Source: an uncultured Bdellovibrionales bacterium
Lineage (GTDB): Bacteria > Bdellovibrionota > Bdellovibrionia > Bdellovibrionales > UBA1609
Length of the DNA stretch: 64,000 nt
Reading direction: 5' to 3'
Assembly (NCBI GenBank): GCA_903833275.1
Contig: CAILEP010000020.1
Coordinates: 62,001 to 126,000 of the forward strand
The notes under the pieces are model-generated. The model was not told where the DNA came from. It was given only the letters and a program-made list of their open reading frames with translations, and ran no database searches. A program made the translations under genes and the position numbers. Shown here piece by piece: positions 37,081 through 48,436 of this stretch (positions within the stretch are counted from its first letter, which is position 1; each line of letters starts with the position of its first letter).

Positions 37081-38199
37081 TTAGGTAGCGCGCAGATCCT
37101 GCGGCACTTCGCCTTCTTGAATGGCACGGGCCACGCGAAGGTGTTCAGGGTGCCCGATAATTTTGGTGGCCTCTGCAAACGGCAGGGGCGCCGCCTGGGC
37201 CAAAACTTCTTTTTTAAGAGCAGCAACGCGAGCAAGAGATTCGTCTACCTGAGTAGACGAAACTCTTTTTTCGGCAATGGCTTTATTGACCGCGTCGATC
37301 GCAATCGGGGGGCTAGTGAAGTCGTTGCAATAAAGAAGAATGTCGCAACCGGCCTGCAGCGCAAGAACCGGAATTTCGGCTTTCGGGTAATTGTTGGCCA
37401 AGGCCTTCATATCGAGATCATCGGTTATCACAAGCCCGCGATAGCGCAGGTCTTCGCGTAGAAGTTTTTTAATAAAAATAGGAGAAAGCGTCACCGGGTA
37501 GGTCGGGTCGATATTTTTAAATTTAATATGAGCGGTCATCACGAGATCCATGCGGGCCCGAAAGGCTTTTTTAAATGGTATCAACTCGCGGCCTTCGAGA
37601 GTCTTCATGTCGACTTCTTCGATCGGCAAATCTAAATGGCTATCGATAATCGTATTGCCATGCCCGGGGAAGTGCTTCGCGCACGGTAAAACCCCGGCCT
37701 TGATGTAGCCGCGCACAAGAGCAGAGGCAATTTTAGCAACGTATTCAGGGTCAGAGCCCAATGATCGATCGCCGATTAAAACATTTTTCGGGTTCGAGAG
37801 CACATCGATGCACGGGGCGAAATCAAGATTGATGCCCACGGCGCGAAGTTCAGCGCCCATCATATTTGCAAATTTAAAAGCCATGGCGGTTGAATCGAGG
37901 GCGGCCAATTTGCCGAGCGACGGCCACTGAGTGAACGGGGCTTTTAGGCGGTGAACGCGCCCGCCCTCCATATCGATGGCGATAAAAAGCGGCGCCTTTG
38001 ACGGCAGTTTTGTATGAAGGTTGTATATGTCTGAGCAGAGTTTGTGAAGCTCAGCCGGGGTTTTTAAATTGCGAGCGAAAAGCGTAACCCCGCCAATGTC
38101 ATTTTTGATTATAAAATCAGCTTCATGTTTCTTGAGTTCGGTGCCCTCAAGACCAATAAATAAAAGTTGGCCAATATGTTTACTCACGAGATACCTCAC
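37081..38199 (-). CDS. nagZ: Beta-N-acetylhexosaminidase NagZ-like (GH3)
   Basis: FIAIDMEGGRVHRL, CAKHFPGHGNTIIDSHLDLP, VITDDLDMKAL. Confidence 0.92.
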   Translation of the reverse strand: MRYLVSKHIGQLLFIGLEGTELKKHEADFIIKNDIGGVTLFARNLKTPAELHKLCSDIYNLHTKLPSKAPLFIAIDMEGGRVHRLKAPFTQWPSLGKLAALDSTAMAFKFANMMGAELRAVGINLDFAPCIDVLSNPKNVLIGDRSLGSDPEYVAKIASALVRGYIKAGVLPCAKHFPGHGNTIIDSHLDLPIEEVDMKTLEGRELIPFKKAFRARMDLVMTAHIKFKNIDPTYPVTLSPIFIKKLLREDLRYRGLVITDDLDMKALANNYPKAEIPVLALQAGCDILLYCNDFTSPPIAIDAVNKAIAEKRVSSTQVDESLARVAALKKEVLAQAAPLPFAEATKIIGHPEHLRVARAIQEGEVPQDLRAT

Positions 38200-38262: not shown

Positions 38263-39216
38263 TCACTGGCCTTTGGGCTTGGTTTTTGGCGGAGTCATCG
38301 GTGGCGAGATCATCGTTGGCATTTGGCCGGCATTTGCTGGTTTCGCGCTGTCGGTGGTGATCATTTGAGTCGGGGTCGCAACAGTCGAGCGCCCGGGTTC
38401 AGCCACTACGGTTGCGCGATTCATTTTATTATTTTTACCTTCAGGCAGGCCCTTAAATAAAGTCGAAATTTGCTTTTCGTTAAAAGGCAATGAGCCCACG
38501 GCTTCAGCGCGAGTCGCGACCATTTCGGTGCTGGCATTTTGCTCGGGCGAAAGCGTGCCAAGTGGCTCGCCATTGTTGGCAACTAGACCAACGAACGAGA
38601 CGCCTTTGTAGTTAAAATCAATTTTGAAGGCATCAATATTTTTTACTTTTTGTTCGGCGGCGATATTGGCGGTGCCTTCGTGAAAGGCGGGGTCTTCTTC
38701 TGACAGTGCAAAGAAATTATAGTTTTTGCCAGTAGATAAGCCATTCTTCAAGATCACGTAGTTTAGAAACGTCGAAAGAAAACCGTTGGGCTTTACCGCC
38801 AAGGTGACTTTTTTAGAGCGCCCGTTCTCGATGATGGTCGCGGTCATTTTTTTATTTTTAAAAACCGCATCAACGAGTTTTGGTTTGCCGTCGGCCAGCG
38901 CGGTGTATTGATAAGAAATCGGTTCGAAGTTGAGGTCAGAATAAGCCAGAAGACTTTCGGTGGTCGAGCCGCTGGGCGTTTTCACAAAGCAGTAATAGGT
39001 CGAGATCATTTCTTTTTTGGTGTCGTGAACCTCGAAGCGTTGAATGACGAAGCCGCTATGTTTGTTACCTAAGAAAAATTTGTAGTAAGCCTCAAAGGCG
39101 GGGCCGTCGGCGTGGGCGGAAGTCGGGAGTGTCAGGATCGAAAGGGCGAGGCTCATAAAAATGACCGACGAAGCTGCCCAAAGGGCTGTGAGTTTCGAGC
39201 CAAATTGTATATTCAT
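38263..39216 (-). CDS. Hypothetical secreted protein (DUF3108-like)
   Basis: Signal peptide; FEAYYKFFLGNKHSGFVIQRFEV...PISYQYTALADGKPKLVDAVFKNKKMTATI. Confidence 0.55.
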   Translation of the reverse strand: MNIQFGSKLTALWAASSVIFMSLALSILTLPTSAHADGPAFEAYYKFFLGNKHSGFVIQRFEVHDTKKEMISTYYCFVKTPSGSTTESLLAYSDLNFEPISYQYTALADGKPKLVDAVFKNKKMTATIIENGRSKKVTLAVKPNGFLSTFLNYVILKNGLSTGKNYNFFALSEEDPAFHEGTANIAAEQKVKNIDAFKIDFNYKGVSFVGLVANNGEPLGTLSPEQNASTEMVATRAEAVGSLPFNEKQISTLFKGLPEGKNNKMNRATVVAEPGRSTVATPTQMITTDSAKPANAGQMPTMISPPMTPPKTKPKGQ

Positions 39217-39303: not shown

Positions 39304-41391
39304 ATGGCGAGCTTGTCAAAATTCAATCGGGCGTTAAAACGCGAAGGCGATCAGCGTGGGCGCCATAGCGTGCGCAATCAACGTGGCCAGATGGCGATCT
39401 TTGTCGCGCTCATCTTTCAAGTTCTATTTCTGTTTTTTGCCATGGCGATTAACATTGGGCTCGCGGTGCACGATAAAATTAATCTGCAGAACGCAACAGA
39501 TCTAGCGGCGTATTACGCGGCTGAGAAGCAAGCTGAAATGCTCAACGTAATCGCCCACACCAACTATCAAATTCGCCAGGCCTATAAATTATTAAATTTT
39601 CGATACTATTATCTCGGCACTATGGGTTACCAAGATCACCCGAGCGGGGCACCAACGGTTTATTCAGAAGGCTCAACTTACGGCGCCATCACCTCGAATG
39701 GGCCAGACCCGCTTTCGATCTGCATTGCGTACTCGCCAACTTGGGTCAATGTGCAAGGCGATAACCTTTGCAAAGGCCCACATACAAATGTACCGAACGT
39801 GCCGATACCGCCGGTGATCGCGCCGTTCATACCGGCCAATTTGATCTTTCAACAGATGGCGATCAAGGGGCAGGCCCATATTGCAAAGACATGCAATACC
39901 TTTGCGACGTTCAATTGGTGGTACGCTTCATCGATTTTGATGTCATATGCTCTCGATCAAGAAAATCGCAAAAAAGTGATACGTGCAATCGCCGCAAACC
40001 TGAGTCTGAAAATGGATGGCAACCAAGGCGACATGCTCGATCTCGATGGTTATAGCATTTATCAAGGTGCTAAAAAAACTTTTGAAAAAAACCTCACCGA
40101 TTCAAATTTGAGATCCCACCCCAAGTTTGAATTAAAAAATCCGCTTGAAGGCAAATCGCAAAAAGATTGGTTGCCCGAAATTGAAGTTTATTTTTCTGTT
40201 GTTTACGATGATGTCGTGGGTACAAGTAATAGCTGTACGGCCGTTGCAAGGCTCGTTTCTGATCAGCCACAGCATTACGACGTGGCCTTTTTGCAAGGGG
40301 TCTTTCCGGGCTCATTGCCAGCCGAGTGGGATCTGCTGCATAACTATGTCGTAGCCCTTCGATCTTTTGGCGTCGGCGACCCGCGACGTCTATCACTCGG
40401 GGTTGAGAAAAACCCTTGGTATTGGGTCTACGTTGCCGCGAAAGCGACTTCGACCCCCACTCAGATGTTTTCGCCAACTTCGCGCTCGACGCCATTTGTG
40501 GCGCGCGCCTACGCACAGCCGTTTGGTGGCCGCGTCGGGCCCTGGTACGGCAAACTTTGGCCCAATGGCAATTCAGAATCAAGCGGGCCGCAGTTGCAAG
40601 AAAGAGCACCACCAAGATTGGGCGCGGGTGGCGCGATAAGAGCTAGTCAGGTGCGCCAGATCTTGCCAGGGTATTCGCGCTATCCGGGCGACATTTACGG
40701 TGAGACCGCTTCAAACTATTTGCAGTCTTTAGCTAATTTATTTAACCCGGTCAGCAATCAGGGTGGGGTCGCTTCAAACTTTACCGATTACGCGAGTATA
40801 TTTAGTACGTTTTATGGTGGGCCGCACGATTCGTTGGCATATCGCAATCAGGTGACGGCACCGTTTCGACCGTTTGAGCTCGCGGCCGTAGCGCCCGATT
40901 TATTTGATATCACCTACTATTCGATTCAGCCAAATTTCGGTAAAAAATATTTGCCGGCACTTGAGTTTAACGCCGATCGTTTGGGCATTCCAAAGACTTC
41001 GATCTACGGCGATCTTGGCCAGCGAACTCACGACCCTTCGCTCTGGGATTTTTCGGTAAAAGATCAGATGAAAACGACAATCGATCTTTTGCACAAGGCC
41101 AACGAGTTTTGGTACGTACGAAAGCGCGAACACTTGCTGACCTCTTGGGTGGGTGGGCCGAACTACGCCGACTATTTTAGCTTTCCGGTTGATCGGTTCG
41201 GCCATTGCAATTCGACGGATGATAGCTTTCAGCCTTCGACCCCGGCGGCCCCGGGCGGTTGTGTTGATGGCGGCGGGCGAACTGGGTACTCAGTCAAAAT
41301 TATATCGCCAGAAATGCTCACTAAATCTTTGCCATTAGGCGGAGCTGGGCAAAACGGCACGATCGCAAATGCGATACCGGCCGATTGGTAA
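39304..41391 (+). CDS. TadE/TadG-like Flp pilus/secretion-associated protein
   Basis: NQRGQMAIFVALIFQVLFLFFAMAINIGLAVHDKINLQNATDLAAYYAA TM segment; ATG at 39304 preferred over the listed start 39112. Confidence 0.65.
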   Translation: MASLSKFNRALKREGDQRGRHSVRNQRGQMAIFVALIFQVLFLFFAMAINIGLAVHDKINLQNATDLAAYYAAEKQAEMLNVIAHTNYQIRQAYKLLNFRYYYLGTMGYQDHPSGAPTVYSEGSTYGAITSNGPDPLSICIAYSPTWVNVQGDNLCKGPHTNVPNVPIPPVIAPFIPANLIFQQMAIKGQAHIAKTCNTFATFNWWYASSILMSYALDQENRKKVIRAIAANLSLKMDGNQGDMLDLDGYSIYQGAKKTFEKNLTDSNLRSHPKFELKNPLEGKSQKDWLPEIEVYFSVVYDDVVGTSNSCTAVARLVSDQPQHYDVAFLQGVFPGSLPAEWDLLHNYVVALRSFGVGDPRRLSLGVEKNPWYWVYVAAKATSTPTQMFSPTSRSTPFVARAYAQPFGGRVGPWYGKLWPNGNSESSGPQLQERAPPRLGAGGAIRASQVRQILPGYSRYPGDIYGETASNYLQSLANLFNPVSNQGGVASNFTDYASIFSTFYGGPHDSLAYRNQVTAPFRPFELAAVAPDLFDITYYSIQPNFGKKYLPALEFNADRLGIPKTSIYGDLGQRTHDPSLWDFSVKDQMKTTIDLLHKANEFWYVRKREHLLTSWVGGPNYADYFSFPVDRFGHCNSTDDSFQPSTPAAPGGCVDGGGRTGYSVKIISPEMLTKSLPLGGAGQNGTIANAIPADW

Positions 41392-42769: not shown

Positions 42770-43612
42770 ATGACGCCACAAAATTTTAAGCAGCAGAAAA
42801 CACGATCGCCATTTAGCTTATCGGCGATTGCCGCAGCCGTTCTTGTCGCCGCTCAAGTGCTGAGTTCAAGCGCGATGGCTTGGGGGATTATGGGTGATAG
42901 AGGGTTGGCTGGCCGTCGAGCTTCTTATTTTGGTCAATATTTGAAACTAAATAAACAAATAAATTTTTGTATCAATAATGAAGACCCAAAGGACTTCGAT
43001 TCAAATTCAATTGAATTGCAAGTTCGAATGGCACTTTCTCTTTGGCTTCAGGCCGCAAACTTTGGCAAAAGCGAAGTGAGGATTTCAAGAATTGGTTGTG
43101 GCGGCGACGACTTTAATTTGAAGATCGACATTTCGCCAGACTCGGGCTGCCCTAGCGGGGCATGTGAAAAAGCTTTGCAGTTTGAGACTGGTAAATTCTA
43201 TCAAAGAGTTAAGATAGATCCGAAATTTGAATTTGTTTCTACAAATGGCACCAACGCGTACACTTTGGATTTTAAAGAAGTGGTGACCGATCTTGGCAAA
43301 GCTCTGGGGCGTGTAAATTTCGGTCTTTTGCAGGCCGTTAGCTACGTGAGTTTTGAAAATCACTTAACATCGGCCGATGTTGCGCAGCTGGTGGATACGG
43401 CCCCAGATGTTATTTTTGCTTCGACTTACCCCACGTTAATTCACGAACTGGGACATGCCTTTGGCCTTTGCGACACCTACGCCGGGGCGACTAATTGTGA
43501 GCAGTTCTCTGTGCCATTGGCGAGTCAACCCCCAAGCGTGATGTCTAGCGACGGGTATTTCTATTTAACAACGGATGACATCGCGGGCATTCGTGCCTTT
43601 ATGGCGAAGTAA
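42770..43612 (+). CDS. Secreted zinc metalloprotease (HExxHxxGxxD type)
   Basis: Signal peptide to AMAWG; IHELGHAFGLCDTY. Confidence 0.8.
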   Translation: MTPQNFKQQKTRSPFSLSAIAAAVLVAAQVLSSSAMAWGIMGDRGLAGRRASYFGQYLKLNKQINFCINNEDPKDFDSNSIELQVRMALSLWLQAANFGKSEVRISRIGCGGDDFNLKIDISPDSGCPSGACEKALQFETGKFYQRVKIDPKFEFVSTNGTNAYTLDFKEVVTDLGKALGRVNFGLLQAVSYVSFENHLTSADVAQLVDTAPDVIFASTYPTLIHELGHAFGLCDTYAGATNCEQFSVPLASQPPSVMSSDGYFYLTTDDIAGIRAFMAK

Positions 43613-43719: not shown

Positions 43720-45327
43720 ATGGATAAAGATCAATTTCGATTAGGGTTTTTATTTGTTCTCGGATTAATAACGGTGGCGTTTATCACACCCGCTGAGGCG
43801 GCGTGCCCGAGCGGCTATCAGTCCGGCGTTGACATGGCGAACACCCCGATTTGTTGGGTGGCAGCGACCGACGGTAAATGCCCCTCGCCAGTTGACACAG
43901 TTGATTCTAAAGGTTTTTGTAATCATGCAGATCCCAGTGGCGGAACCACCAACAACTCCAATTTAAACTCGGCGTACGGTGCTTCGAACTCGGCGGGTCG
44001 TCTGCCAGCGGGCGCGTGTATTTCTAATTATATCGGCAGCGATCGTGCGGCATTTTATGGCAGCTTTCGATCTAAATCTGATGTTGAAATTTTAGCTGAA
44101 CTTAAAGCGCAAGATTGTGGGCAGGCTGCGACTTTGGCTGACAAATGTTGCGGCAACCCGGCGAGCTGTATTACCAGCGACCCGAGCACCGATGCTGAAG
44201 CACAAGACAGCACCTGGGCGGGGCAGGCATTTCAATTTTTAGCGTCAGCGGCGGTGTCTGTTCCGGCTGGTTCGATCACCGACGCTTGCGGCCGAATGAA
44301 AGATGCGGCTTATGCGATGACGGCTTTACAAACCTTTATGTCGGGCAAATGCAGTTTGAAGGTGAACGCCTGTAAGTCGGCTTGCACTTCGAAGCTGACC
44401 CAAGCGCGAAGTGATTATCAAAAACTTGATAAGGTCGAATTGCGCGGGCAATGCGCGGTTGATCTTGAAACCATCGGCAGCGTAAAAGACGCTCTCGATT
44501 CGTTAAATAATCTTTGTATTAGCTCGGCCAATGCCAACGTCGCGGTTCGACAGCAAGTGGTGGCGTCGCAAATGTCGGGTAAGTTCGCGGCCATGTGCCA
44601 AGATCAAGCGAACAATCAGCAGAATGCTTTTGCTAACCCTGATTGCACGCAGCCGGCGCAGGCGGTGACTCCGTTTTGCCAATATCAGTGCAATCGCCCA
44701 GGTGCGGCTCAAGACCCCAATTGTTCGGCGCTGTTGTCAGCAATGAGAAACAATCCAGGTTATGGGGCCGGCGGAGTGCCAGACGGGTCGAATTCAAATG
44801 CAAATTCTTTGTACGGCGGGTTGCCGACTTCGCCAGAAAACCCGCAGCTTGCGATACCGCCAACAACAGATGCTTCGTCGAAGGGTCTCGCTAAAACTGA
44901 AGGCGGCGGCGCGAGTGGCGGCCTTGGTGGAGGCGGTGGCGGTGGCGGCGGCAGTTCGGGCGGCCCAGCTGGTAAAGCGGGCGGCGGCTATGACACAAGT
45001 ATTTTACGCGGCATCGCCTCGGGCAATGGCTACTCGGCCGGCCCACACATGGCCTCGGGTTCAAACGGCGGTTTCAGCGGCTACGGCGGCGGCACCAACA
45101 ATGTTCTCGGTAAGCCACTCAATCTTAAAAATTATTTACCCGGCGGCAAAGACGGCGCGCCGAGAGGCCCCTTTCGCGGCCTCGCTTCGAAAGCCGCCGA
45201 CATCGGCCCAGCTCACGACGACATCTTCGAAAAAATCTCAAATCGCTTTTACGTCGTTTGTCTACGTGACGGATTATACGACTGCGACACCCTCAAGAAA
45301 ATGAAACGCGGAGTCGGAGGTAACTAA
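43720..45327 (+). CDS. Secreted Cys-rich, Gly-rich hypothetical protein A
   Basis: Signal peptide, about 35 Cys, polyGly linker, C-terminal DDIFEKISNRFYVV. Confidence 0.75.
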   Translation: MDKDQFRLGFLFVLGLITVAFITPAEAACPSGYQSGVDMANTPICWVAATDGKCPSPVDTVDSKGFCNHADPSGGTTNNSNLNSAYGASNSAGRLPAGACISNYIGSDRAAFYGSFRSKSDVEILAELKAQDCGQAATLADKCCGNPASCITSDPSTDAEAQDSTWAGQAFQFLASAAVSVPAGSITDACGRMKDAAYAMTALQTFMSGKCSLKVNACKSACTSKLTQARSDYQKLDKVELRGQCAVDLETIGSVKDALDSLNNLCISSANANVAVRQQVVASQMSGKFAAMCQDQANNQQNAFANPDCTQPAQAVTPFCQYQCNRPGAAQDPNCSALLSAMRNNPGYGAGGVPDGSNSNANSLYGGLPTSPENPQLAIPPTTDASSKGLAKTEGGGASGGLGGGGGGGGGSSGGPAGKAGGGYDTSILRGIASGNGYSAGPHMASGSNGGFSGYGGGTNNVLGKPLNLKNYLPGGKDGAPRGPFRGLASKAADIGPAHDDIFEKISNRFYVVCLRDGLYDCDTLKKMKRGVGGN

Positions 45328-46268
45328 TGAGCAGCTCGCAATTTTACCGCTCGGTGTTTGCCACCCGAATTTTATTGGCCATTTCAATTGTAGTTCTCAC
45401 TTCAAGCAACGGCTGGGCGCAGGGCGGATCAGCCTCTGCCGGCCTTACGCAAGTTGCAGGCGGTATTAGTGTCGTAGCAAGTGGCGCTGGGGCTTATTAT
45501 ACCTGTACGGCATGTCATACCTGCAAGGCGGCCGCGTGTACGATGACTTGCGTAATGTGCGCCAGCTTGGTGGCCAACACCGCAACTAGTGCGGCGGGCA
45601 TGGCAGGCGCCGGAAGTACCCAGGGAGATTTAAGTAACGGGGCAGGGCTATGTACACCAGGTGACACAAGTTGTGCTGGTGGTTATGGGCCAAATCCGAC
45701 GCCAAGCACACCAGGCGCTGGCGGTTTCGGCGGTGGGCCAAATGGCAATTGTGCTCCAGCCGACCTTGTTTGTTTGGGCAACATCGCCTCGTCAAATGGT
45801 TACAAATATAACCCAGCTGATAATTCAATTTCGACTCCGAAGGGTAAATTCCCGGCGAGTGCTTTGGCTTCTGGTCAATCGATGGCGGCGGCAGGGATTA
45901 TCGGAAAAGACGAAGTTGGTAAAGCCGATGCATTGATAAAGGCCATAAACGATAAAATGAAAGTCTCATCCGTCGGAGTTGCTGGCGGTGGTGGCGGCGG
46001 TGGTTCGGGTGGCGGCGTTAAATATGAATATACAAATGATACTCCGTTGGGCGGGATGCAAAAGCCGAAGGGCCCGACAACAGCGGGTTTGACTCGCACA
46101 CTTGCCAGTGGAGAATTAATCGGCTCGCAAGTTGATGATATTTTTGAAATGATCACGCGCAAGTATCAAGAAAAATCAAAAGAGAATATTTTTGTCGGCC
46201 AACAACCGGGGTCAGTGCCAGCGCCGGCCCCACGCGCGGGTCAGCAGCCGCCGTCGCCGCGTCGCTAG
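45327..46268 (+). CDS. Secreted Cys-cluster, Gly-rich hypothetical protein B
   Basis: Signal peptide, CTACHTCKAAACTMTCVMC cluster, polyGly linker, C-terminal VDDIFEMITRKYQEK; start overlaps stop of protein A (TAATG). Confidence 0.75.
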   Translation: MSSSQFYRSVFATRILLAISIVVLTSSNGWAQGGSASAGLTQVAGGISVVASGAGAYYTCTACHTCKAAACTMTCVMCASLVANTATSAAGMAGAGSTQGDLSNGAGLCTPGDTSCAGGYGPNPTPSTPGAGGFGGGPNGNCAPADLVCLGNIASSNGYKYNPADNSISTPKGKFPASALASGQSMAAAGIIGKDEVGKADALIKAINDKMKVSSVGVAGGGGGGGSGGGVKYEYTNDTPLGGMQKPKGPTTAGLTRTLASGELIGSQVDDIFEMITRKYQEKSKENIFVGQQPGSVPAPAPRAGQQPPSPRR

Positions 46269-46298: not shown

Positions 46299-47336
46299 TT
46301 AAACAATTAATTGTCGGCGTAGCGAAGTCATCTCGTTGATGTGCACTCCTGGTGCGATGACGGATGATTCGATTAAGCCCTGCATAACACGCGAGTCGGC
46401 GCCGAGAACGGCGAAGTCGCGCACTTCAACATTGGCGTCGACGTAGCTTTCGGGGCCCATCAGTAAAAACGAACCCGGGTTGAGTGCGCCATTAAAGACC
46501 GAGCCTTTTGAAACCCATTGTGCTTCGCCGATGCGCTCATAGGTAAAGCCGAAGCGGGCGAAGACGTTATTGAGGCGACGGCCGAAAACAGAATCTTGGC
46601 CAAGCTCAATCAGCGCTCGTTGCGTCGACTCGAGATAGCTGTTGAGATCTGTGGTCTCAAGCCAGAGAAGGCTCGGGTCGTGATAGGCGAAAACCTTCTC
46701 GCCTCTGATCATGGCGGGCTCGAGGCAATGATTGAAAATATGAAACGGCAAGCTGTGGGCCGGCATGTATTTAAACACGCGCTCTGAGAAAATAAAAACG
46801 CCGGTAAAATGTTGGGCCTTTTCTTTGCGATTAGGGTCGGTGCCGCCAAGCTTTGTCACAAGCCCATCGGCGTTGGCCCAGACCCCGCCAAGCGTGAGGC
46901 CCGCGGCCGGGTGATCTGTGGTCAGTAAAGTTGCGAGCGCGCCCGATTGGCGATGAAAATCAATAAGCGGTTTCAGGCCGTAATCGTGATTGAATAGAAT
47001 AATTTCGTCGCCGTTAATAACTAGAAAATTTTCGCCAGTGAGTTGGGCGGCGTTATTTTTTATACCGCCGCCGCTTCCGAGAATTTTTGTTTCGTTCGAA
47101 AAATGCAGATTGTATTTGCCGCCCGAGGCTTTAGTAAGCCCGCGCACTGCCGACTCTACGGTCTGTGGCAAGTGATGCGTGTTAATAACTAAATTTTCGA
47201 GACCGAGGCTTTCGAGATAAACCAGCGAGTACGCCAATTGCGGTAGATTTAAAAAAGGCAACGCGGGTTTTGCGACCCTGTCGGTGGTGGGGCGAAAGCG
47301 GGTGCCGAGGCCAGCACAAAGCAGTTCAGCGTTCAT
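46299..47336 (-). CDS. NDP-sugar nucleotidyltransferase (MurU-like with C-terminal extension)
   Basis: LLCAGLGTRFRPTTDRVAKPALPF; LVINGDEI; C-term LbH-like segment. Confidence 0.75.
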   Translation of the reverse strand: MNAELLCAGLGTRFRPTTDRVAKPALPFLNLPQLAYSLVYLESLGLENLVINTHHLPQTVESAVRGLTKASGGKYNLHFSNETKILGSGGGIKNNAAQLTGENFLVINGDEIILFNHDYGLKPLIDFHRQSGALATLLTTDHPAAGLTLGGVWANADGLVTKLGGTDPNRKEKAQHFTGVFIFSERVFKYMPAHSLPFHIFNHCLEPAMIRGEKVFAYHDPSLLWLETTDLNSYLESTQRALIELGQDSVFGRRLNNVFARFGFTYERIGEAQWVSKGSVFNGALNPGSFLLMGPESYVDANVEVRDFAVLGADSRVMQGLIESSVIAPGVHINEMTSLRRQLIV

Positions 47337-47353: not shown

Positions 47354-48436
47354 TTAGCGCAAAGCGGTCGGGTTGAGATAATCGAGTTCAGTTAAACCAT
47401 GGTCTTTAATAATCGAAAGAAATATTTTGTACTTCGGGTAAGCCTCAAGGGTCGCCGCCACTTTTCGCACCGTCGGCTGCAAATATTTGAGGTAGCGCAA
47501 ATCTTCGCGCGTGTTATAGAAGCTTGCAAAACTGCCGCAGGCTTTAAAGCAACGCTGAATTGTTTGCACCCGCATAATTTCGTGAAAATGATCGCGCGAC
47601 ATTGGCTTCGCTCTGTATTGCTTCGATTGTTGCAAATAATAATCGAGTATTTCGCCTCTAACTACGTCGTTTAAGTCGACATACGAATCGTGCACAAGAG
47701 ACACCAGGTCATACTGCACCGAGCCCATGCGTGCGTCTTGAAAGTCGATAACGCGAATTTTATTATTCTTAAGCATTAGATTTCGCGAGTGATAATCACG
47801 ATGGCAGATAAATTTCTCTTCGCGATCAAGGGTTGAGCAAATATCAGTAAAAATATCATCGAGCTCTTTGCGCACGCCTGTGGCCAACTGAATTCGACTG
47901 AACTTTTCGATGAGGTGCTCGCGGCCGTAGTTCATCTCCCACAAAAGTTTTTCGGTGTTGAAGAAAACCTTAAAGGCGACGCACGGGGCATTCGAATCTT
48001 GGGTCGCGGGGTAATGGATCTTAATGATTTCGTCGATCGCAAGTTTGTAGTAGGGCAAGGCTTGGGTTTGGTTTTGATTCTCCCAAAACTTACGTTCGAG
48101 GGTAAGATCGCCTAAGTCTTCGAGAAGAACCAGGCCAAGCTCAGGGGCTTGGGCGACGACCTTCGGCACGTGCACGCCGTGTTTTTCAAAGTGAGCGCGC
48201 ACATTTAAGAACGGGTAATTGCCGTCGTCCGTGAAGGGCTCCCAGACCATGAGAACGTATGATTGCTCGCCTGAGGCGCTGTCGTGCACGGCGCGATAGT
48301 AGCGCCGCGAACTCGCATCACCTGCCAATTGCATGATCGAAATATTTTCGGCTGTCTTGCCCGGCAAATCGGTGCCTAAAGCTTTAGCGAGAAAAGTATG
48401 AGTGGCCGCGGGCAAGTCTTTATTTTGTGGTGCCAT
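47354..48436 (-). CDS. Aminoglycoside phosphotransferase-family sugar kinase (AmgK-like)
   Basis: GDASSRRYYR, LLEDLGDLTLE, FICHRDYHSRNLMLKNNKIRVIDFQDARMG. Confidence 0.8.
   Translation of the reverse strand: MAPQNKDLPAATHTFLAKALGTDLPGKTAENISIMQLAGDASSRRYYRAVHDSASGEQSYVLMVWEPFTDDGNYPFLNVRAHFEKHGVHVPKVVAQAPELGLVLLEDLGDLTLERKFWENQNQTQALPYYKLAIDEIIKIHYPATQDSNAPCVAFKVFFNTEKLLWEMNYGREHLIEKFSRIQLATGVRKELDDIFTDICSTLDREEKFICHRDYHSRNLMLKNNKIRVIDFQDARMGSVQYDLVSLVHDSYVDLNDVVRGEILDYYLQQSKQYRAKPMSRDHFHEIMRVQTIQRCFKACGSFASFYNTREDLRYLKYLQPTVRKVAATLEAYPKYKIFLSIIKDHGLTELDYLNPTALR

Follow-up and report, generated by a model that had tools for sequence, protein, structure and literature searches.

Within the window, the 64,000-nucleotide stretch of Bdellovibrionales DNA analysed here, two adjacent genes, A and B, encode exported proteins that look largely dissimilar and yet appear to carry common short motifs. 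This raises the question of which of these motifs are truly shared, and what a shared element would do on two such different proteins. The locus and its flanks, with export of both proteins judged from sequence, are laid out as follows.

37081..38199, minus strand: NagZ-like glycoside hydrolase family 3 gene, left of T (PF00933, E 1.1e-79)
39304..41391, plus strand: gene T, predicted large TadG-like minor pilin with a TadE/G-type N-terminal helix and a long C-terminal domain (PF13400); start position uncertain, ORF opening at 39112
42770..43612, plus strand: gene M, zincin-type metalloprotease (HELGHAFGLCD), directly upstream of A; sub-threshold Pfam metallopeptidase matches
43720..45327, plus strand: gene A, 535 aa putative secreted protein; ORF call, orthologues aligned
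45327..46268, plus strand: gene B, 313 aa putative secreted protein; ORF call, overlapping A by one base
46299..47336, minus strand: MurU-like sugar nucleotidyltransferase, right of B (PF00483; MurU the best NCBIfam model, below cut-off, E 6.7e-23)
47354..48436, minus strand: AmgK-like kinase, right of B (PF01636; AmgK model E 1.1e-34, below cut-off)

The stop codon of A (TAA, 45325-45327) and the start codon of B (ATG, 45327-45329) have one base in common, and the ORFs and the stop and start coordinates agree with the TAATG overlap at 45327 described in the first-pass annotation. T lies about 2.3 kb upstream of A, with a Nudix gene and M between them in this genome. The peptidoglycan-recycling-like flanks of T, A and B (NagZ-, MurU- and AmgK-like, and also NamZ-like in the relative genome G072, L280) recur in many genomes.

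Two shared motifs had been proposed, IASxNGY and a C-terminal DDIFE, and they fared very differently. Separate profiles of the two C-terminal ends, one drawn from the A alignment and one from the B alignment, match each other with an hhalign probability of 94.3, an E of 1e-7 and a score of 37.6, against 10.7 for the best of 30 column-shuffled profiles. Homology between A and B is claimed solely from these separate tail profiles and the shuffle control, because an iterated A profile absorbed B sequences. The C-terminal tail of A and B, about 40 residues long, is thus one homologous module, which bears out the C-terminal half of the proposal. The literal DDIFE is rare (1 A and 3 B of 164 proteins), and the consensus is broader, roughly [IV]G, 3-5 residues, [DNS][DNS][IL][FW]xx[IVM]xx[RK][YF]. 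The tail helix looks amphipathic and has no hydrophobic membrane stretch. Just ahead of this helix, both types have a short [LV]A[GS] element, which many A-type proteins show as RGLAG or RGLAS and many B-type proteins as AGL or AGM, and which could belong to the dock or be a site of processing.

IASxNGY is present in both window proteins as annotated, yet it occurs in 2/101 A-type and 1/63 B-type proteins, where the class label is whichever of two overlapping profiles scored better. In the predicted models it falls in a disordered Gly linker in A and in a confidently folded small domain in B, that is, in non-homologous parts, and we rejected it as an element of the shared module in favor of chance occurrence. 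No homology links the N-terminal half of A to that of B (hhalign probability 0.23), so the dissimilarity outside the motifs holds. Of the proposed common module for docking, sorting or assembly, the tail therefore survives, as a homologous and phylum-wide element on non-homologous bodies, and the IASxNGY part is lost. The claim of a common layout stands for the signal peptides (judged by eye), the Gly-rich linker, the Cys-rich character of A and a 6-Cys segment in B, and again fails for IASxNGY.

Protein A can be divided into five regions, all on the plus strand.

43720..43803, plus strand: signal peptide, residues 1-28 (by eye; AlphaFold helix 4-21)
43804..44034, plus strand: variable N-terminal Cys-rich region with a small beta domain, residues 29-105 (predicted strands 33-69)
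44047..44724, plus strand: Cys-rich helical bundle region, residues 110-335 (12 near-invariant Cys)
44764..45114, plus strand: disordered Gly-rich linker with GIASGNGY, residues 349-465 (pLDDT below 50)
45175..45309, plus strand: conserved C-terminal tail, about residues 486-530, with a helix at 502-516 (tail profile match)

In an alignment of 37 orthologues, 12 cysteines of A are invariant or nearly so, and AlphaFold predicts a long helical bundle at 119-303 with a pLDDT mostly of 70-95. The tail profile, which contains A's own sequence, matches at window 45172-45288 (C20:107172-107288) with an E of 4.7e-13. Copies of A in the window's own genome are only about 50% identical at the DNA level over the first 300 bp, against about 85% over the remainder, which marks the N-terminal region as the variable part.

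A is multicopy in this genome (G000), with further copies on contigs C4 (L010 6148-7866), C15 (L011 3-605) and C32 (L012 2-178). Several of these lie at or near contig ends, suggesting that near-identical copies have broken the assembly, and the C15 and C32 fragments may be two ends of one copy. Two other pieces look like A-gene remnants: an orphan tail on C32 (L012 1951-2007), comprising the final 19 residues of A (95% identity), and a 97 aa ORF on C8 (L013 6010-6303) that covers A in its C-terminal part only. The C4 copy is adjoined by two tandem flagellin-like genes (L010 3385-5638), and the same small contig carries a YD-repeat-like ORF at 220-1698.

An M-type metalloprotease stands directly upstream of A copies at four places (window 42770-43612; L011 689-2506; L010 7949-8251; L074 5541-6422) and is doubled in tandem on C15. 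Among the loci fetched, M relatives beside A copies elsewhere were confined to C4, C15 and the same-genus genome G004. M was accordingly dropped as an obligate partner of A; it is a genus-level companion outside the conserved module described below, and it could process A.

B begins with an ordinary-looking signal peptide, again judged by eye, and is present as a single copy in the window's own genome. Three further regions were delimited.

45432..45638, plus strand: hydrophobic Ala/Gly-rich helical hairpin with a Cys at the turn, residues 36-104 (helices 36-62 and 69-104)
45765..45959, plus strand: compact alpha/beta domain with NIASSNGY, residues 147-211 (pLDDT mostly 86-95)
46068..46199, plus strand: conserved C-terminal tail, about residues 248-291, with a helix at 272-285 (tail profile match)

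The hydrophobic hairpin has its turn cysteine in nearly all of 40 orthologues, and its hydropathy is borderline, with medians of 1.2-1.4. B also contains the 6-Cys segment and a disordered linker ahead of the tail helix. Its tail matches the profile, which contains B's own sequence, at window 46068-46196 with an E of 4.5e-16.

Searches for known relatives agree with the first-pass view that no named family can be recognized. Neither A nor B matches any Pfam or NCBIfam model (E 0.1 and 1), and their orthologues give no consistent Pfam or NCBIfam match and no pilin match. A sequence search of the PDB returned nothing real, the A-profile matches being mostly to engineered Gly-rich linkers. The structural models are of modest confidence (mean pLDDT about 64, pTM 0.43); a PDB fold search gave nothing significant for A (best Foldseek E 0.14, TM 0.16-0.19) and zero matches for B. 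We found no paper describing the family in the open-access literature. A and B represent an undescribed family of exported proteins that is conserved in most Bdellovibrionota sampled.

The extent of this conservation was assessed in 148 related genomes. Single-sequence searches recovered A in 53 and B in 56 of them, and the 45-position tail profile recovered the tail in 132, with most profile matches falling in open frames whose length suits an A- or B-type protein. T was found in 140/148 and the Tad secretin RcpA in 143/148; since both are near-universal, their co-occurrence is weak evidence. A scan with a T profile of one genome per species (85,488 species) left 78 loci, kept from the best 80 of 121 matches. 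The titles of these kept loci name Bdellovibrionota (Bdellovibrionales, Bdellovibrionaceae, Oligoflexia and others) with the exception of one Proteobacteria and one "bacterium", a phylum restriction that is provisional because the species scan rests on two short patterns. Many carriers are uncultured and have no known predatory lifestyle.

T itself is, as judged from its N-terminal features, a large TadG-like minor pilin. It matches PF13400 with an E of 2.5e-9 and 37.7 bits against a cut-off of 22.3, and so has the Tad/TadE-type N-terminal hydrophobic helix. In 21 orthologues, G4 and Q5 are invariant, with the Gly at the predicted prepilin-type cleavage position before the helix. No TadE or TadF partner genes were seen beside T.

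Gene order was counted at those named T loci, 56 in all, whose downstream sequence runs to 4.5 kb or more. A followed by B was found at 29 of them, B followed by A at 2, only one of the two at 4 and neither at 21, so that A and/or B stands directly downstream of T at 35/56 usable named loci and both do at 31. The A-B gap has a median of 10 bp. T-A-B is a conserved module ending in A and B. The recurrence in pairs near a constant pilus gene for which the first-pass annotation had suggested looking is thus seen at the majority of T loci and is missing at the 21 with neither gene. In one genus, two or three A-type genes also stand in tandem with neither T nor B present.

The relative genome G072 (3,782,950 bases), which we take to be Bdellovibrio bacteriovorus HD100, links the module to published genetics. 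Its Tad locus at 101-106.3 kb contains, as assigned by sequence, TadZ, RcpA, CpaB, a TadE-like gene and Flp1; T-A-B lies at 131.9-136.7 kb, about 25 kb away from this locus and its TadE-like gene, placing A and B outside the Tad operon itself. The two are closer in two other genomes, where T is about 10 kb from RcpA and close to TadA and TadB genes. Elsewhere in G072, at a distance from T and B, three A-type genes stand in tandem (488.1-492.6 kb; L281 4114-8574).

A substitution in bd0149, c.767G>T (G256V), has been found in biofilm-forming host-independent strains (PMC11323537). Read from its natural ATG, the G072 A has Gly256 with the codon GGT, which fits this change, whereas residue 256 of T and of B, read from their first start codons, does not, and T was rejected as Bd0149 by this check. 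The gene to the right of B also fits at residue 256, and it presumably encodes the exo-muramidase NamZ. Bd0152 has been described as a muramidase (PMC11656739). Taking the residue-256 fit of A together with this NamZ-like right neighbor, A appears to be Bd0149, and B is most likely Bd0150, as indicated by gene order and the Bd0149 and Bd0152 anchors.

A transposon mutant of Bd0150 showed no prey attachment, killing or rounding and resembled a mutant of tadC (Bd0470); it is not one of the five mutants that were complemented (Duncan 2019, PMC6561027). If B is Bd0150, the insertion is unlikely to be polar on A or T, since B ends the run and the next gene is convergent. In that study Bd0150, most likely the B orthologue by gene order, is listed only as hypothetical and of unknown function, with no link to a family, to T or to the tail.

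We propose that A and B are Sec-exported, disulfide-rich accessory proteins that their tails dock at the tip of the Tad pilus, with the variable N-terminus of A facing the prey. Docking, passage through the secretin and prey contact are what we infer here, and we give the proposal an even chance of being correct. Both proteins would be exported by Sec and form disulfides in the periplasm. The tail helix would then dock them onto T or its tip complex, so that pilus growth would carry them out by way of the Tad secretin. A flexible tether may be provided by the Gly-rich linker, while the helical bundle of A would hold out the variable N-terminal domain, rich in Cys, to make contact with the prey surface; the contribution of B would be its compact domain and its hydrophobic hairpin. 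In B. bacteriovorus, losing B (most likely Bd0150) would block attachment and all later steps.

Several lines of evidence support this pilus-tip reading: the tail homology with its shuffle control and wide retention, the T-A-B order with short gaps, the pilin N-terminus of T, the proximity of the module to Tad genes in G072 and the two other genomes, the resemblance of the Bd0150 and tadC mutants, the N-terminal variability of A and the precedent of a TadEFG-like tip in Myxococcus. It is weakened by the T loci that have no adjacent A or B, by tandem A genes without T and by the position of A and B outside the Tad operon. The assignment to Bd0150 by inference, an uncomplemented mutant, the lack of a fold match and the many carriers not known to be predators weaken it further.

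The same observations are open to other explanations. The best placed is that the tail acts independently of Tad as an outer-membrane or cell-surface sorting or anchoring signal, with A and B being surface adhesins and their operon with T regulatory or historical. Its C-terminal placement is typical for sorting signals, A-type genes often stand alone or in tandem away from T, adjacent A or B is absent at 21/56 T loci, and any adhesin would suit an attachment defect. Against this, the linkage to T has been kept over deep divergence, and no NCBIfam model matched A or B. NCBIfam includes models of known C-terminal sorting domains, and no curated Pfam or NCBIfam model of known sorting tails (PEP-CTERM, GlyGly-CTERM, type 9 secretion) matches either protein. 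We regard this explanation as rather unlikely.

A and B could instead be structural proteins of the predator's own envelope or matrix that take no direct part in contacting prey, and the defect of the mutant would then be indirect. The phylum-wide distribution, including many lineages without known predation, would suit such a role, as would the Gly-rich low-complexity linkers, which are common among structural proteins, and the Bd0149 substitution in biofilm-forming host-independent strains (PMC11323537). The Bd0150 mutant, however, falls in the same class as tadC, and the link to a pilin-like gene is conserved, making this account improbable.

Similarly improbable, and ranked just behind it, is a membrane-active complex at the prey contact site that A and B would form or help to insert, A through its long helical bundle and B through its hairpin. 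The hairpin is hydrophobic with its turn cysteine nearly always kept, the top fold matches of A, although non-significant, are to ClyA-type helical cytolysins, and the Bd0150 mutant loses killing. These fold matches have the look of generic helices, however, the hydropathy of B is merely borderline, and the mutant fails already at attachment. A was rejected as a ClyA-type helical pore-forming protein, its top match at E 0.14 being read as generic helix similarity. Finally, chance similarity between unrelated neighboring genes, though it holds for IASxNGY, is refuted for the tail by a score of 37.6 against at most 10.7 in 30 shuffles and by its presence in 132/148 genomes, and is hardly credible for the pair as a whole.

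Returning to the pilus-tip reading, its closest precedent is the Kil/Tad system of Myxococcus xanthus, in which, according to the parts of the report drawn on here, KilLMN tip complexes are made of TadE/F/G-like minor pilins (PMC12075869). The shared features there are a large TadG-like pilin with a big distal domain (KilN there, T here), disulfide richness, several paralogous sets with variable ends and a role in predation. For B. bacteriovorus, a structural analogue of KilLMN is reported, with no locus tags given in the main text, and T may correspond to it. Kil tips are made of pilins, in contrast to A and B, which have ordinary signal peptides (by eye), a C-terminal tail and no pilin-type N-terminal helix or prepilin site; A and B were rejected as Kil tip pilins on these grounds. 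The same parts of that report describe no non-pilin accessory proteins like A and B for Kil tips, of which A and B could be passengers.

The report also brings in, in those parts, TcpF docked by TcpB, and PilY1, which resemble the arrangement proposed for A and B in being secreted non-pilin cargo on a minor-pilin tip (via PMC12075869). They differ in belonging to type IVa/IVb pili of other classes, we found no sequence relation, and the putative docking tail of A and B is new relative to what is described there. Closer in location are the TAD operon bd0109-bd0119 and its Flp pilins (PMC5430801), in the same genome G072 and about 25 kb from T-A-B; T-A-B is outside this operon, and TadE and TadG go unmentioned in the text of that paper. 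Flp1, Flp2 and Flp4 are required for predation in B. bacteriovorus, yet the flp mutants still adhere (PMC5430801), whereas the Bd0150 and tadC mutants do not attach (Duncan 2019, PMC6561027).

The A/B family is probably a variant of pilus-tip equipment. More broadly, it may define a new class of Tad-pilus passengers across Bdellovibrionota, non-pilin and disulfide-rich, loaded onto a TadG-like tip pilin by a transferable tail and equipped with interchangeable N-terminal domains for prey recognition, a generalization that we put forward tentatively and consider doubtful as it stands. It has long been asked how Bdellovibrio recognizes and seizes its prey on first contact, and several genes essential for this step, Bd0150 included, are still annotated as hypothetical. 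On the present evidence, Bd0150 most likely belongs to a conserved module that includes a TadG-like minor pilin, and the published mutant suggests that this gene is needed for prey attachment and killing. The variable N-terminal domain of A is, in turn, a candidate for prey specificity.
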